From contig NZ_PSXX01000010.1 of NCBI RefSeq assembly GCF_002931055.1, positions 62,001 through 126,000 on the forward strand: a stretch of DNA of 64,000 bases. The letters run 5' to 3'. This stretch comes from Pseudoclavibacter sp. AY1H1 (lineage in GTDB: Bacteria; Actinomycetota; Actinomycetes; Actinomycetales; Microbacteriaceae). This document shows, in pieces, positions 27,400 to 35,843 of this stretch. A program made the position numbers and the translations under genes. The notes under the pieces are model-generated. The model did not search any database. It saw only the letters and a list, made by a program, of their open reading frames with translations, and was not told the DNA's origin. Each line of letters opens with the position of its first letter. Position 1 is the first letter of the stretch.

Positions 27400-27432
27400 G
27401 GCGTCTCCGGCGAGGTCGTGGATGCTCCGTTC

Positions 27433-27489
27433 GGCCTGATTGGTTCGTCCTGATAGCTCTGTCCTGACCGGTTTGGCCTGATTGGTTCG
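27433..27489. repeat. Short direct repeat after the secreted-protein gene
   Basis: GGCCTGATTGGTTCG occurs at 27433-27447 and 27475-27489 within a run of CCTGA-type words. This is local duplication with no coding potential. Confidence 0.7.
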
Positions 27490-27566
27490 CCCTGGTCGGC
27501 TTCTCCTGACCGCGCCTTCTGCGCGCGTCGCCTGCGCACCGCCGGGCAACGCATCTGCGGCAAGAA

Positions 27567-28390
27567 GGTCACTTTCGCCCCACCCGGGCTCCCGGAGCGG
27601 GCAGAAAGTGGCCTACTCGGCGGCGGCGGATACGTGGCGCGGCGTCGCGCGGTTCAAGCGGGCTCATGCGGCTCAGCCGGGCTCAAGCGGATCCGGCAAG
27701 CTCACGCGGCTCAAGCGGGTCACTGTCGCCCCACCCGGGCCCCGCAACGGGATGAAAGTGGCCTACTCGGCGCCGGCAGCGGCAGCGGTGTAAGGGGCGG
27801 CGCCGCGGCGTCGCGCAGGTAGAGCGGGCTCACGCGGTTCAGATGGGCCACTTTCGCCCCACCTGGGCTCCCGAGATGGGCTGAAAGTGGCCTTCTTGGC
27901 AGCGGCAGCGGCAGCGGCAGCGGCAGCGGCAGCGGCAGCGCGGCGCCCGCGGCGCTGCGCGGTTCAGCGGGCTCGCGCAGGCCAGGCGGGCTCATGCGGT
28001 TCAGGCGGGTCACTTTCGCCCCACTCGGGCTGCCGGGATGGGCTGAAAGTGGCCTACTTGGCGGCGGCGGCAGCGGCGTCGCGCGGGCCAGGCGGGCCAC
28101 TTTCGCCCCAGTTGGGCTGCCGGGATGGGCTGAAAGTGGCCTTCTTGGCGGCGGTAGCGCGGCGCCCGCGGCGCTGCGCGGTTCGGCGGGCTCGCGCAGG
28201 CCAGGCGGGCTCATCCGGTCCAGATGGGCCACTTTCGTCCCACTTGGGCTCCCGGGATGGGCTGAAGGTGGCCTACTTGGAGGCGGCGGCGGGGGTGGCA
28301 GCGCGGCGTCGCGCGGTTCAGGCGAGCTCGCGCGGCTCAAGCGGGTCACTTTCGCCCCACCTGGGCCCCCGCGACGGGCTGAAAGCGCCC
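27567..28390. repeat. Palindrome island 2: seven ~47-bp hairpins
   Basis: Seven imperfect palindromes occur at 27567-27613, 27718-27763, 27846-27892, 28008-28054, 28095-28141, 28227-28273 and 28344-28390. Each reads GGYCACTTTCGCCCCA, then a GGGCTCCCG-type centre, then GGGCTGAAAGTGGCC. They are followed by a CTACTTGG/CTTCTTGG tail and separated by 40-105 bp of GGCTCATGCGGTTCAGG-like sequence. A GGCAGC hexanucleotide run (about 27898-27940) sits after copy 3. The island lies between the secreted-protein gene and the convergent exonuclease gene and ends 20 bp from the latter's stop. Confidence 0.88.
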
Positions 28391-28410
28391 TACTCGGCGG
28401 CAGGGGCGGA

Positions 28411-31856: not shown

Positions 31857-32609
31857 TCAGAGCTGCTCGCCGATGACGCGAGCTGCCTGGATGACGCGGG
31901 ACCTGAACCTCGCGAGCCCGTCCTCGCTGATCGTCTCTTCCGTCGTCACGAGATTCACGACGCCGATGACGGTGCCGCGCGAGTCCGTGATGGCGGCGGT
32001 GAGGCTCACCGTTCCCGGGTAGCGCTCTGAATGGCTCTCGTAGGTGCCCGTCGCCGCGGCTTCGGCGAGCTCAGATCGAAGCGAGTCGGCGGTCTGATGC
32101 CGTCCGCTGGCGAGTGCGAGCCCCGAGTAGTCCTTCAGGAACTCGTCGAGTTCTTCCGGTGCGACGGCCGCGAGCAGCACCTTGCCGCCACCGACGTCGA
32201 GGTCGAGGCGCTGCCCGATCGGGAACCGGTAGCGGAGCGACTCGGGTGGCTCGACGCGCGCGACGAGGATGCGCGACCAGCCCGAGCGCACGTAGACGGA
32301 CGACGTGAATCCGGTCGTTTCGGTGAGGTTCTGCAGCACCGGATGCGAGACGGAGGCGAGCCGATCCTGGAGCATGAACGCGTGCGCGTGCGCGAGGACG
32401 ACGGGACCGAGCGTGTAGCCGGCCTCGGTCGAGTTGAGGTACCCGCGCCGCGCGAGGGTCGTGGTGATGCGCTGCGTGGTCGTGATGTGCAGGCCGGTGG
32501 CCTTGGAGATCTGCGTCAGCTTCAGCGGCGTCCGTGATGCCTCGACGCACTCGATGACGTCGAGCGCTCGTTCGAGCGTCCGGCCTTGATTGACGCGCTC
32601 AACGCTCAC
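31857..32609 (-). CDS. IclR-family transcriptional regulator
   Basis: A 250-residue regulator. Residues 8-70 form the winged helix-turn-helix ('LTQISKATGLHITTTQRITT'), then the GAF-like effector domain with 'VGGGKVLLAAVAPEELDEFL' and 'VSLTAAITDSRGTVIGVVNL'. IclR proteins typically sense aromatic or C4-type acids. It is divergent from the dehydrogenase-RraA fusion gene, with an inverted repeat (32732-32753) next to that gene's start. I infer control of the fusion gene and the TRAP-like permease genes. The start is GTG at 32609. Confidence 0.9.
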   Translation of the reverse strand: MSVERVNQGRTLERALDVIECVEASRTPLKLTQISKATGLHITTTQRITTTLARRGYLNSTEAGYTLGPVVLAHAHAFMLQDRLASVSHPVLQNLTETTGFTSSVYVRSGWSRILVARVEPPESLRYRFPIGQRLDLDVGGGKVLLAAVAPEELDEFLKDYSGLALASGRHQTADSLRSELAEAAATGTYESHSERYPGTVSLTAAITDSRGTVIGVVNLVTTEETISEDGLARFRSRVIQAARVIGEQL

Positions 32610-32731
32610 TGCGTTTTCCCCTCCGTGCCAGGTGATTCCTCAACGTACCACCGGGTGCAACGAGACCCTGCTTGGTCCCGTCCCTGGCCGCGAACGTGGA
32701 CGCCTGCTATCGTTACGCGAAATCAACTTGC

Positions 32732-32753
32732 GCAGAGTGATAGAAAACTCTGC
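32732..32753. promoter_or_regulatory. Candidate IclR operator (GCAGAGT-N8-ACTCTGC)
   Basis: A perfect 7-bp inverted repeat with an 8-nt AT-rich spacer (gatagaaa) lies 21 bp before the fusion gene start, downstream of a possible -10 (TATCGT, 32708-32713). Confidence 0.6.
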
Positions 32754-32774
32754 CTGATGACAACGGAGTCGATC

Positions 32775-34130
32775 ATGAGAATCGCTGTCCTCGGCCTCGG
32801 TGAAGCCGGAAGCATGTACGCGAAGGCGTTCGTCGAAGCCTCCTGGGAGGTCGTCGGCTTCGACCCCAGGAGCGTCGAGATCCCCGGAATGACCAGCGCC
32901 ACCTCGATCGCCGAGGCGGTCGCCGGCGCCGACGCGGTGCTCGGCCTCACCACGGCGGCCCACGCCGCAGGGGCAGCGCGAGACGCGGCACCGCACCTCG
33001 AGCCGACCGCGGTGTTCCTCGACCTCAACGCCGGATCCCCGCAGCTGAAGCGGGCCGTCGCCGACGAGATCGGCGAACGCGCCAAGGTCGTCGACGGGGC
33101 CGTGATCGGCTCGGTGAAGAAGTTCGGCGCGCAGGTGCGCGTCATCCTCTCCGGCCCCGACGCGGACTCGGCCGCCGACGTACTGCGCTCCATCGGCGCC
33201 ACTGCGGACGTCGTCAGTGACACCATCGGGGACGCATCCGGCCGCAAGCTCCTGCGCAGCGTGTACATGAAGGGACTCGGCGCGCTCATCAGCGAGGCCA
33301 TGTCCGCCGGCCGTGCTGCTGGCGAGGAAGCGTGGATGCGCGCCCAGATCGTCGAGACCCTGGTCGACGGAGAGGCCGCCGTCACGCGTCTCGACGAGGG
33401 CACGCGCATCCACGCAGACCGGCGAAGCCACGAGCTCGGCGACAGCCTGGAGCTGCTGAGCGCGCTTCCGGGGAACTGGCCCGTCACCGAAGGCGCCAGG
33501 CGCCGACACGTCGACCTCGCCTTCGAGGCGAAGCCCGACTTCGCGGCGGAACTCGAGTCGGTGCCGACGGCGGCGCTCGGCGATGGCGGGGACCGGCTCG
33601 GATTCGCGCACTCGAGCATCAAGCCCATCTGGCCCTCCGGCCCGATCGCCGGACGCGCACGCACCGTGCTCGTCAACCCAGGCGACAACCGGGCCCTGCA
33701 CGAGGCGCTCAAGGTGGTCCGGCCCGGCGAGGTGCTCGTCATCGCGGGTGGCGGGTACGCCGAGCGTGCGCTGCTCGGCGAGCTCATCGCGGAGCGCGCG
33801 GTCAACGCGGGGGTGCGCGGCATCATCGTCGACGGCGCAGTGCGCGACGTCTCCGCCATCGCCGAGATCGGACTACCCGTCTGGGCTGTCGCAGTCTCCC
33901 CGGCGGGCCCCTACAAGTCCGGCCCCGGGCGGGTCGGCGAGACCATCTCGCTCGGAGGCGCCATCTGCTCGACCGGCGACTACGTGGTCGCCGACGAGGA
34001 TGGCGTGCTCGTCCTCCCGATCGACCGCGCGGTTGCCGCGCTCAGGGCAGGCCGGGCGGTGCTCGCCGATGAGGCGGGCCGCCGTGTCGAGATCCTGCGC
34101 CAGCGCGCCGAAGCGAATCCCAGCGCCTGA
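32775..34130 (+). CDS. Fusion of 6PGDH-like/DUF1932 dehydrogenase with RraA-type aldolase/decarboxylase
   Basis: A 451-residue protein with two enzyme halves. Residues 1-155 are an NAD-binding Rossmann domain ('MRIAVLGLGEAGSMYAKAF') of the 6-phosphogluconate/hydroxyisobutyrate dehydrogenase type. Residues 160-240 match DUF1932 ('LLRSVYMKGLGALISEAMSA'). From about 265 comes an RraA-like domain: 'NPGDNRALHEAL', 'LLGELIAERAVNAGVRGIIV' and 'DGAVRDVSAI', with the Mg-binding GELxA and RD motifs intact. RraA-like enzymes cleave 4-hydroxy-4-methyl- or 4-carboxy-4-hydroxy-2-oxo acids or decarboxylate oxaloacetate. I infer oxidation of a hydroxy-diacid followed by cleavage or decarboxylation of the product. 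The ATG at 32775 follows GGAG. Confidence 0.85.
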   Translation: MRIAVLGLGEAGSMYAKAFVEASWEVVGFDPRSVEIPGMTSATSIAEAVAGADAVLGLTTAAHAAGAARDAAPHLEPTAVFLDLNAGSPQLKRAVADEIGERAKVVDGAVIGSVKKFGAQVRVILSGPDADSAADVLRSIGATADVVSDTIGDASGRKLLRSVYMKGLGALISEAMSAGRAAGEEAWMRAQIVETLVDGEAAVTRLDEGTRIHADRRSHELGDSLELLSALPGNWPVTEGARRRHVDLAFEAKPDFAAELESVPTAALGDGGDRLGFAHSSIKPIWPSGPIAGRARTVLVNPGDNRALHEALKVVRPGEVLVIAGGGYAERALLGELIAERAVNAGVRGIIVDGAVRDVSAIAEIGLPVWAVAVSPAGPYKSGPGRVGETISLGGAICSTGDYVVADEDGVLVLPIDRAVAALRAGRAVLADEAGRRVEILRQRAEANPSA

Positions 34131-34167: not shown

Positions 34168-34233
34168 ATGAGCATCACCGACCAGGGGCACCCGCCCCGC
34201 CGACGTAGGGGAGGGTCATGCCTGTCGCACTGA
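34168..34233 (+). CDS. 21-residue leader ORF overlapping the TRAP-like permease start
   Basis: This short frame starts with ATG after a strong AAAGGAG. It encodes a basic peptide ('GHPPRRRRGGSCLSH' at its end), and its stop codon lies 16 nt inside the permease gene, which starts at 34218 in another frame after GGGGAGG. It could couple translation of the permease to the leader or sense ribosome stalling at the four arginines. It could also be a chance ORF. Confidence 0.4.
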   Translation: MSITDQGHPPRRRRGGSCLSH

Positions 34234-35567
34234 TCGCCCTCGTCGCCTTCATCGCGACGATCGTCACCTGGAACGTCGTCGTCAAGCGCAACATGGCGGA
34301 AGCCATGATCCTCGGCTTCCTCGTCACGCTCGCCTTCGCCGGGTTCAACGCCCCCGAGTACGCCGTGACCGCCGTCGTCGAAGCATCCGAGAACCAGGTC
34401 CTCTACGCCGCCGTCGCGTTCGTCTTCATGACGCACTTCGTCGAGCGCACCGGCGTCATCGATCGCCTCATCGCCATCCTCTCCTCGCTCTTCGGCAAGC
34501 TGCCGGGCGGCCCCGCGATCGTCGACACGCTCGCATCCGGTGCCATGGGAGCCGTCGCGGGCGGCTCCAACACGGGCAACGCGGCCTCCTCCGGAGCGAT
34601 CACCGGTCCGTGGATGGTGCGCACCGGATGGAAGCGCTCGCGCGCCGCGACCGTCATCGCCGGCAACGCGGGCCTCGGCACCGCGCTTCCTCCGAGCGCG
34701 TCCATGGTCATCATGATCGGATTCGCCGGCACGCTCGTGACGACCAGCGAGGTCTACCTGGCGCTGCTCGTCGCCGGCATCTACCAGTTCGTGTTCCGGA
34801 TGGGCCTCATCGGCTGGTTCGTGAAGCGCGACAAGATCACGGCAGCCTCGGGACCCGAGATCCTGCCGTGGCGCAGCGCGATGAAGCGCGGCGGAACGTC
34901 GACCCTCATCTTCCTTGGCGCGATCATCCCGATCGCGATCTCGGTCGGGCCCCTCGCCGACGCCCTCAAGGCGTCGCCGGTGCTCTCCGAAGCCATGGGA
35001 TCGATCTCGCTCATCGTGTGGATCCCCGTCCTCATCATGTTCTTCGCCGCGCTCGTCGCCTGGAAGGACCTGCCGCGCTCGCCGCGCGGATGGTGGGAGC
35101 TCATCACGAGCGGGGCGCCGAAGTTCTACACGATCGTCGCGCTCCTCTTCTTCGCCGTCGTCGCGAGCGAGGTGCTCGCCGAGCTCGGCCTCGCGGAGGA
35201 CGTCGACAACCTGCTGAGCGGCGTCGACATCCCGCTGTGGCTGCTCGTGACGTTCATCGGGCTGCTGATCGTGCTGGTCGCGGGCCCGCTGTCGTCGACG
35301 GCAACCCTCACCGCCGTCGGTCAGGTGTCGCTGTTCACGCTCATCGCCGCGGGCATCGACCCGCTGCTCGCCGTCATCGCGATCCTCGTGTTCGCCTCGA
35401 CGGAGGGCGCCTCCCCGCCCGCCTCCGGCGCCATCTTCGTCGCGAGCGGCCTCACGGGAGCCAAACCGGAGTCCACGTTCGTGCCGCTCATCATCTACTA
35501 CGTCGTGCCGTTCTTCGCGCTCGGCGTCCTGATCGCGCTCGGGATCGTCCCGGTCCCCGGCGGATAG
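34218..35567 (+). CDS. TRAP-type transporter large (DctM-like) permease
   Basis: A 449-residue inner-membrane protein with about 12 helices. The half-repeat signatures 'GAVAGGSNTGNAASSGAITG' with 'AGNAGLGTALPPSASMVIMI' and, later, 'GPLSSTATLTAVGQVSLFTL' with 'ASTEGASPPASGAIFVASGL' match TRAP large permeases. These carry C4-dicarboxylates and other acids using a sodium gradient. It lies 87 bp after the fusion enzyme and 12 bp before a small membrane gene. No DctP-type binding protein gene is present in the window, which is unusual. The GTG/ATG choice is clear: ATG at 34218 after GGGGAGG. Confidence 0.83.
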   Translation: MPVALIALVAFIATIVTWNVVVKRNMAEAMILGFLVTLAFAGFNAPEYAVTAVVEASENQVLYAAVAFVFMTHFVERTGVIDRLIAILSSLFGKLPGGPAIVDTLASGAMGAVAGGSNTGNAASSGAITGPWMVRTGWKRSRAATVIAGNAGLGTALPPSASMVIMIGFAGTLVTTSEVYLALLVAGIYQFVFRMGLIGWFVKRDKITAASGPEILPWRSAMKRGGTSTLIFLGAIIPIAISVGPLADALKASPVLSEAMGSISLIVWIPVLIMFFAALVAWKDLPRSPRGWWELITSGAPKFYTIVALLFFAVVASEVLAELGLAEDVDNLLSGVDIPLWLLVTFIGLLIVLVAGPLSSTATLTAVGQVSLFTLIAAGIDPLLAVIAILVFASTEGASPPASGAIFVASGLTGAKPESTFVPLIIYYVVPFFALGVLIALGIVPVPGG

Positions 35568-35579
35568 GAGTCTGAAATC

Positions 35580-35843
35580 ATGCGCACCTCACTGCACCGC
35601 ATCCTGCATCCGCTCTTCGGCATCGCGATGATCGTCTTCCTGCTGCTGGCGTTCGTGCTCGTCTTCGCCCAGGTCATCGGGCTCATCTTCGCGCAGCCCT
35701 GGCTCATCGAGGGAGCCTCGGAGACGCTCCTCCATCCGGCCATCATCTCGGCCATCGTCGTCGGCCTCATCGGCTACGCCCTCTTCAACTGCCTCCCGAA
35801 GGTGGAGAAGAAGGCCGAGCTGGAGGATGAGGACGAAGACTGA
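35580..35843 (+). CDS. Small membrane partner of the TRAP-like permease
   Basis: An 87-residue protein with two hydrophobic helices, about 13-38 ('GIAMIVFLLLAFVLVFAQVI') and 52-70 ('PAIISAIVVGLIGYALFNCL'), and an acidic tail ending in 'EDEDED'. It stands where the DctQ small subunit usually is, but is half the usual size (DctQ has four helices). I infer a reduced small subunit; homology is not evident by eye. GAG precedes the ATG weakly. It is the last gene of the unit. Confidence 0.6.
   Translation: MRTSLHRILHPLFGIAMIVFLLLAFVLVFAQVIGLIFAQPWLIEGASETLLHPAIISAIVVGLIGYALFNCLPKVEKKAELEDEDED

Follow-up and report, generated by a model that had tools for sequence, protein, structure and literature searches.

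Both halves of the protein described here are already known as kinds of protein, as is their pairing as neighbouring genes. The closest described relatives of the C-terminal half are the HMG/CHA aldolases (LigK/GalC/PmdF; PDB 3NOJ), which have the same fold and gave its top PDB match both by sequence and by Foldseek. For the P. putida HMG/CHA aldolase, the accessible part of the source reports that an R123K substitution lowers HMG turnover 181-fold, and that oxaloacetate is decarboxylated by this type of enzyme too (PMC5065237). FlDet, also of the RraA family, is a dehydratase/decarboxylase according to the accessible part of its description (PMC8563752), so that the reaction of an RraA half cannot be inferred from its fold. 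The RNase-regulator RraA has this fold as well. RraA proteins are trimers, and proteins of the 6PGDH type are dimers. On the dehydrogenase side, the NAD_binding_2 Rossmann domain of the N-terminal half is also found in L-threonate dehydrogenase and other beta-hydroxyacid dehydrogenases. Another counterpart is the DUF1932 NAD(P)-dependent oxidoreductase of the LigR-regulated lig operon (at the position of SARO_RS14280); the gene at this position in N. pentaromativorans and Sphingomonas sp. R1 is homologous to the N-terminal half and has its invariant residues. According to the accessible parts of one study, ligR occurs together with both units in 113 of the 152 aromatic-metabolising genomes (PMC12710314).

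The 64,000-nucleotide stretch of Pseudoclavibacter sp. AY1H1 DNA analysed here (the window) contains a gene in which these two kinds of protein are joined. Unlike this fusion, the lig-operon oxidoreductase is a standalone protein within a ring-cleavage operon, and the accessible portions of its source paper assign no role to it. Our search of titles and abstract openings found no description of the fusion, of its cassette or of a bridge to the orphan lig-operon gene, and a literature search for this dehydrogenase subfamily found no biochemical data.

A dehydrogenase and an RraA-type domain share one reading frame

The sequence-only reading had described one 451-residue frame joining a Rossmann dehydrogenase to an RraA-like domain, and this proved exactly right. 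Positions 32775-34130 of the plus strand form a single uninterrupted frame of 451 codons, from an ATG at 32775 to a TGA that ends at 34130, with both domains recognised by Pfam. A GGAG ends 6 bases before the ATG at 32775; this start is consistent with the homologues, and a further in-frame ATG lies at 32757. The 6PGDH/DUF1932-type dehydrogenase comes first and is followed by a complete RraA/HMG-aldolase-type domain:

32775..33509, plus strand: N-terminal half, residues 1-245, a 6PGDH/DUF1932-type dehydrogenase domain (by Pfam, PDB relatives and residue comparison)
33510..34130, plus strand: C-terminal half, residues 246-451 and the stop codon, an RraA/HMG-aldolase-type domain (by Pfam and 3NOJ)

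NAD_binding_2 matched residues 2-143 (E 6e-7; 30 bits, above its cut-off of 21) and RraA-like matched residues 268-413 (E 3e-44; 151 bits, above 24.5). DUF1932 matched residues 181-244 below its threshold (18.8 bits against a cut-off of 25). Among four other fused homologues scanned, two exceeded this cut-off (32.8 and 45.7 bits) and two fell just short (23.9 and 23.7), and the dehydrogenase tree placed the window protein among DUF1932 proteins. The structure of the fused protein was predicted from a three-sequence alignment with a mean pLDDT of 63 and a pTM of 0.46. In Foldseek searches, the predicted C-terminal half had 3NOJ as its first match (TM 0.72 by target length), while the predicted N-terminal half matched 3QSG, 4EZB and 1I36 at TM values of only 0.35-0.37.

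The fusion has a single origin

Of 394 genomes searched within the class, 10 encoded full-length fused homologues, as did 2 of the 396 in a wider draw from the phylum, with the window's own genome counted in both; two named genomes, Nocardiopsis alba (L020:6001-7350) and a Streptomyces strain, have them too. In a draw of 60 near relatives the fusion occurred in the window genome only. Since none of the nine other genomes of its genus has the fused gene, the fusion is sporadic within the genus. In the dehydrogenase tree (55 rows) the 12 fused proteins, namely that of the window and 11 homologues from several families, grouped together in a single clade (100/99), and they did so again in the RraA tree (99/98; 56 rows), showing that the fusion arose once. 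The first tree was built without L108 (two partial frames), the edge-cut piece of L042, L121 (no gene called) and L123; for the second, L100 was left out (the same gene as in L042) and L048 was included through a re-extended frame.

In the dehydrogenase tree, the sister group of the fused clade consisted of five split loci (L033, L048, L098, L100 and L101; joined at 95/88). The same five loci fell together with the fused proteins in one 18-row clade of the RraA tree (99/93), the detail of which was unresolved; the sequence weakly nearest to the fused proteins was L038, an RraA encoded elsewhere in the window's own genome (83/76). In all five nearest split loci the RraA gene lies upstream of the dehydrogenase gene, which is the reverse of the order in the fusion. 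Because of this reversal, neither a frameshift error nor simple read-through could have yielded the fused gene. The sequence-only reading had raised the prospect of a frameshift merging two genes and of separate genes in close relatives. What we found was an open frame with no internal stop, 11 further fused homologues from several families in a single clade, close homologues that are fused as well, and nearest split relatives in reverse order. Joining of two genes by frameshift, misassembly or read-through was rejected on these grounds, so far as sequence data allow, and we give it practically no chance.

Both halves carry conserved catalytic-type residues

The solved relatives of the N-terminal half by sequence are 1I36, 3QSG and 4EZB, all uncharacterised 6PGDH-like proteins. 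It has a GLGEAG loop, and D30 stands at the end of beta-2. In a comparison covering 49 of the 55 rows of the dehydrogenase tree, K158, R161, K166, H213, R216, R217 and E220 were invariant (49/49), so that the H213-x2-R216-R217-x2-E220 stretch of the window protein is common to all rows compared, and D30 was kept in 48. K158 occupies what we take to be the position of the superfamily's catalytic lysine, and the basic residues would suit a poly-carboxylate substrate. NAD rather than NADP is the predicted cofactor, since a near-invariant Asp ends beta-2. The protein differs from L-threonate dehydrogenase and other beta-hydroxyacid dehydrogenases: it scored 19.6 bits with the L-threonate dehydrogenase model, against a cut-off of 350, and has a C-terminal domain of the DUF1932 type.

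For the C-terminal half the best PDB relative by sequence was 3NOJ (E 2e-28). The metal motif of the window protein reads E336-x20-R357-D358 and its counterpart in 3NOJ is D102-x20-R123-D124; in the alignment, R357/D358 correspond to R123/D124, E336 to D102 and K381 to K147. The motifs had been called intact from the sequence alone. The motif is indeed present, in a conservative E-x20-RD variant instead of D-x20-RD. This GE form occurs in all 12 fused proteins, and the E form is also found in many RraA genes of ring-cleavage-type operons.

Curated models placed the RraA half outside the named families. It scored well below the LigK equivalogs (TIGR02798, 116 versus 304.5 bits; NF006731, 128 versus 179) and below the equivalog for the RNase E regulator RraA (NF006875, 89 versus 136 bits), and the PRK06201 cut-off was not reached either. 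In the RraA tree, the 18-row clade containing the fused proteins was separate from a 29-row clade (98/97) with the LigK proteins of annotated lig operons. We therefore rejected a LigK identity for this half. Compared with HMG/CHA aldolase, the fused protein has E336 in place of D102, an attached dehydrogenase and a separate position in the tree; compared with the RNase-regulator RraA, it lies below the equivalog cut-off and is encoded in a catabolic cassette. An aldolase-like action is the inference that we favour for the RraA half. As this half lies outside the LigK clade and under every curated aldolase/RraA cut-off listed, such an activity is proposed from family resemblance.

The fused gene belongs to a conserved cassette

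Four further features of the window surround the fusion:

31857..32609, minus strand: IclR-family regulator (Pfam IclR_C, E 2e-22, and HTH_IclR), transcribed away from the fusion
32610..32774, no strand: IclR/fusion intergenic region, with a half-site TGATAG at 32738-32743
34218..35567, plus strand: DctM-family permease (PF06808, E 1e-43)
35580..35843, plus strand: 87-residue hydrophobic protein, a putative small permease subunit

The IclR regulator noticed beside the fusion in the sequence-only reading was borne out by Pfam and is kept within 8 kb in all 12 fused loci; in nine of them it adjoins the fusion and is divergent from it. A DctM-type permease likewise lies within 8 kb in 12/12 loci, each time followed by an open reading frame of 83-101 residues, and ten of these 12 small proteins, the window's included, are similar by BLAST at E 1e-3. 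The suspected TRAP-like pair held for its larger member. The permease scored 150 bits with PF06808 (cut-off 23.8), and 62 bits against the 268 required by the stricter NCBIfam dctM model; its 87-residue partner, with no Pfam match at E 0.01, is not a recognised DctQ. No DctP was recognised among the called neighbours, and the permease is therefore only a presumed importer.

A cyclase-family hydrolase is present in 3 of the 12 fused loci, a near-identical pair included, and in 3 of the 5 sister split loci; PF04199 was confirmed for one of these genes. In L033, L048 and L098 the split cassette reads IclR-TctBAC-RraA-DH-DctM-small-cyclase. It has the same permease and the same cyclase family as the fused cassettes, and differs in having two genes with RraA first and an extra Tct-type tripartite transporter. 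A family III CoA transferase was dropped as a pathway clue, being near only two of the 12 fused loci: in L042 a CitE-like lyase accompanies it by the neighbouring split cluster, and in L045 its partner is a citrate-synthase-domain protein.

The palindrome CTATCA-N5-TGATAG, a candidate IclR operator, occurs shortly 5' of the fusion start in five of the nine IclR/fusion intergenic regions compared (L020, and L039, L040, L042 and L043 from four genomes of one family, f35); the window has one half-site only. A scan for consensus promoters and terminators found none. In one genome (G094; L042/L100) the fused cassette stands side by side with a paralogous split cluster containing the dehydrogenase, IclR, RraA, small protein, DctM, CitE-like lyase and family III CoA transferase genes, and this adjacency suggests two related substrates.

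Most standalone dehydrogenases lie near RraA genes, usually in ring-cleavage-type operons

To compare the fusion with its split relatives, we used 31 actinobacterial loci with an unfused dehydrogenase. Of these, 27 came from searches in which only the dehydrogenase half served as query, and four from another search; G439:C17, G288, G229, G190 and three weak matches were left out. In 27 of the 31 loci the standalone dehydrogenase had an RraA gene no more than 8 kb away, and two of the remaining four (L102 and L118) are on contigs shorter than 7 kb. The functional link between the halves that had been proposed from the fusion is thus supported by this pairing. For 15 plasmid loci the whole fused protein served as query, and the pairing seen in 15/15 of them is biased accordingly and is not a rate.

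Most of the standalone-dehydrogenase operons resemble 4-oxalomesaconate-forming ring cleavage, a connection absent from the sequence-only reading. A hydratase marker was found within 8 kb in 22/31 loci (PIG-L in 15, a LigJ-like amidohydrolase in 7). Within the same distance, 14 loci had DUF6282 and 13 a VOC dioxygenase; nine had a PrpF-type 4-oxalomesaconate tautomerase, seven a LigM-type O-demethylase and two a LigI-like gene. The tautomerase reference passed the 4-oxalomesaconate tautomerase model NF033377 (468 versus 440 bits), and the O-demethylase reference passed the vanillate/3-O-methylgallate O-demethylase model NF047885 (867 versus 580 bits). The labels GalB-like (PIG-L) and LigJ-like (amidohydrolase) are our tentative assignments, as the respective references had no Pfam matches other than PIG-L and Amidohydro_2, and their NCBIfam searches at E 1e-6 gave either no match or scores well short of the model cut-offs.

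Annotated plasmids outside the actinobacterial set show the same. Genes annotated as protocatechuate 4,5-dioxygenase and LigK accompany the dehydrogenase of Acidovorax carolinensis, Novosphingobium pentaromativorans and Sphingomonas sp. R1; the latter two have an annotated 4-oxalomesaconate tautomerase as well. Its neighbours in Rhizobium daejeonense include genes for PIG-L, CHA aldolase, a Tct transporter and a tautomerase, with no annotated dioxygenase in the stretch covered. No hydratase, dioxygenase or tautomerase marker was present within 8 kb of the pairs in Priestia, Pseudomonas syringae, Rhizobium sp. Pop5, Azospirillum, Methylobacterium and Shinella; the pairing of the dehydrogenase with RraA is therefore wider than ring cleavage. 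In Methylobacterium an SMP-30 lactonase adjoins the pair.

These neighbourhoods bear on the kind of C-C bond reaction to be expected. 6PGDH-type enzymes act on hydroxy acids. An alternative, corresponding to the second option of the sequence-only reading, is that the dehydrogenase would turn a beta-hydroxy diacid resembling malate, tartrate or isocitrate into a beta-oxo acid for decarboxylation by the RraA half. In line with this, two Priestia plasmids have a citrate:proton symporter close to the split pair, and Tct-type transporters occur at four of the five sister split loci; decarboxylation is retained in our scheme because HMG/CHA aldolase decarboxylates oxaloacetate and FlDet is a dehydratase/decarboxylase, as stated in the accessible parts of both sources (PMC5065237, PMC8563752). 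However, the lyase step expected in the 22/31 standalone loci with a PIG-L or LigJ-like marker is aldol cleavage, and we regard oxidation followed by decarboxylation as possible though doubtful. Retro-aldol cleavage is favoured since the usual neighbour of the standalone dehydrogenase is a lyase for which aldol cleavage is expected.

Eight loci (L112-L117, L119 and L049, the last on a Thermus plasmid) share a compact operon of VOC dioxygenase, DUF1932 dehydrogenase, DUF6282, PIG-L and RraA genes. This operon may be a protocatechuate/gallate-type meta-cleavage pathway assembled from non-homologous parts, with DUF6282 as candidate lactonase. The five genes map one-to-one onto the five steps of protocatechuate 4,5-cleavage, no LigC-like gene lies within 8 kb, and the Thermus locus is also near a 4-hydroxybenzoate 3-monooxygenase. 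The dehydrogenase might, then, stand in for LigC and oxidise the cyclic hemiacetal of the ring-cleavage product to a lactone, to be opened by DUF6282, a LigI-like or a cyclase-type hydrolase, with the fused form acting alike on another lactol. Such a role is unlikely: a LigC-like gene co-occurs with the dehydrogenase and RraA in six loci (L109, L111, L053, L122, L123 and L128), a single family contributes six of the eight loci in its favour, and searches within 8 kb of the 12 fused genes with the dioxygenase, hydratase and DUF6282 references gave no match. As a separate observation, the dehydrogenase of an otherwise complete-looking ring-cleavage-type operon in L108 (7790-8610) was called as two pieces.

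A proposed function for the fused enzyme

We propose, with a probability of about one half, that the fusion is a bifunctional enzyme of catabolism, encoded in a small cassette for import and degradation: an imported hydroxy di- or tricarboxylate would be oxidised and the resulting oxo acid split by the RraA half. The proposal builds on the catalytic-type residues conserved in each half, on the constancy of the cassette and on the repeated pairing of this dehydrogenase with RraA, and we also counted in its favour the recurrent ring-opening or hydrolytic enzyme (cyclase, DUF6282, LigI-like or SMP-30 lactonase). In this scheme, the DctM-type permease and its small partner would import the hydroxy acid; in some lineages the substrate may arrive in a cyclised or amide form, opened by the neighbouring PF04199 hydrolase. 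The N-terminal domain would then oxidise the hydroxyl to an oxo group, presumably with NAD+ and as the first of the two steps. The RraA domain would split the oxo acid with the help of a divalent metal bound near E336/R357/D358. A retro-aldol reaction to pyruvate and a second oxo acid is the likeliest course and decarboxylation a less likely one, and the IclR regulator may sense substrate or product. A general argument for fusing the two activities is that cleavage would pull an unfavourable oxidation and that the reactive oxo acid would be used where it is made.

A more specific version would connect the fusion to the orphan gene of the lig operon. Between the ligR-type regulator and the ligJ-type amidohydrolase, both N. 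pentaromativorans and Sphingomonas sp. R1 have a homologue of the dehydrogenase half, and the N. pentaromativorans protein scored 75 bits for DUF1932. By gene order, rather than from its own sequence, SARO_RS14280 of Novosphingobium aromaticivorans DSM 12444 is presumably the same dehydrogenase. Because these relatives usually adjoin in ring-cleavage pathways in which the dehydrogenase has no known role, the fusion is a usable clue to its job. We tentatively suggest, as a reading that we think improbable, an undescribed two-step route in which the cyclase would open a 4-hydroxy-2-oxo acid in its lactone or hydroxy form, the DUF1932 domain oxidise it and RraA cleave the product. The orphan lig/gal dehydrogenase would perform the same chemistry, recovering reduced intermediates of the 4-oxalomesaconate/CHA type. 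On chemical grounds, candidate substrates would be reduced CHA or HMG (a 2,4-dihydroxy-4-substituted glutarate).

Reduced CHA or HMG could also arise as a side product. In that case the dehydrogenase would serve metabolite repair, re-oxidising (or reductively removing) side products of the reversible aldolase, with the fusion keeping the reactive oxo acid local. LigK can make parapyruvate (HMG) in vivo from excess pyruvate, as the accessible part of the source states (PMC11951559), and the dehydrogenase occurs in lig operons that already hold the other known steps. We nevertheless consider repair very unlikely for the fused protein, whose own regulator and permease in 12/12 loci point to a dedicated catabolic substrate and not to housekeeping.

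A natural fusion in a cassette of importer, regulator and enzyme indicates that the dehydrogenase step adjoins that of the lyase, and it offers a minimal protein for a substrate search. Solving its reaction would fill a gap in protocatechuate/gallate-type catabolism, with relevance to lignin valorisation, and would help to define DUF1932.

The window genome outside the cassette

LigJ-like and LigB-like queries gave no match in the window genome, in a search run without a positive control, and a PIG-L query gave a weak match only (E 1e-6); the cassette thus appears not to serve ring cleavage of this type in the window strain. Relatives of PrpF (38%) and VOC dioxygenase (35%) are encoded on another contig. 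In this strain the fused enzyme probably handles its own imported acid and does not finish a ring-cleavage pathway.

The same genome has a second RraA of the fused proteins' clade, 47% identical (L038; C12:135000-152000). It lies 3' of genes resembling a Tct-type transporter, and no dehydrogenase of this family was matched in that stretch. An RraA without this dehydrogenase fits a lyase able to work alone on an oxo acid, with the dehydrogenase serving to make one.

Upstream in the window, seven imperfect 69-nt direct repeats occupy 27561-28406, where no gene was called; six of them are 64-86% identical to the one taken as reference, and several contain an internal inverted repeat, GGCCACTTTCGCCCCA...TGAAAGTGGCC. 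Five repeats with a spacing of 14 nt (27415-27512) adjoin this array.
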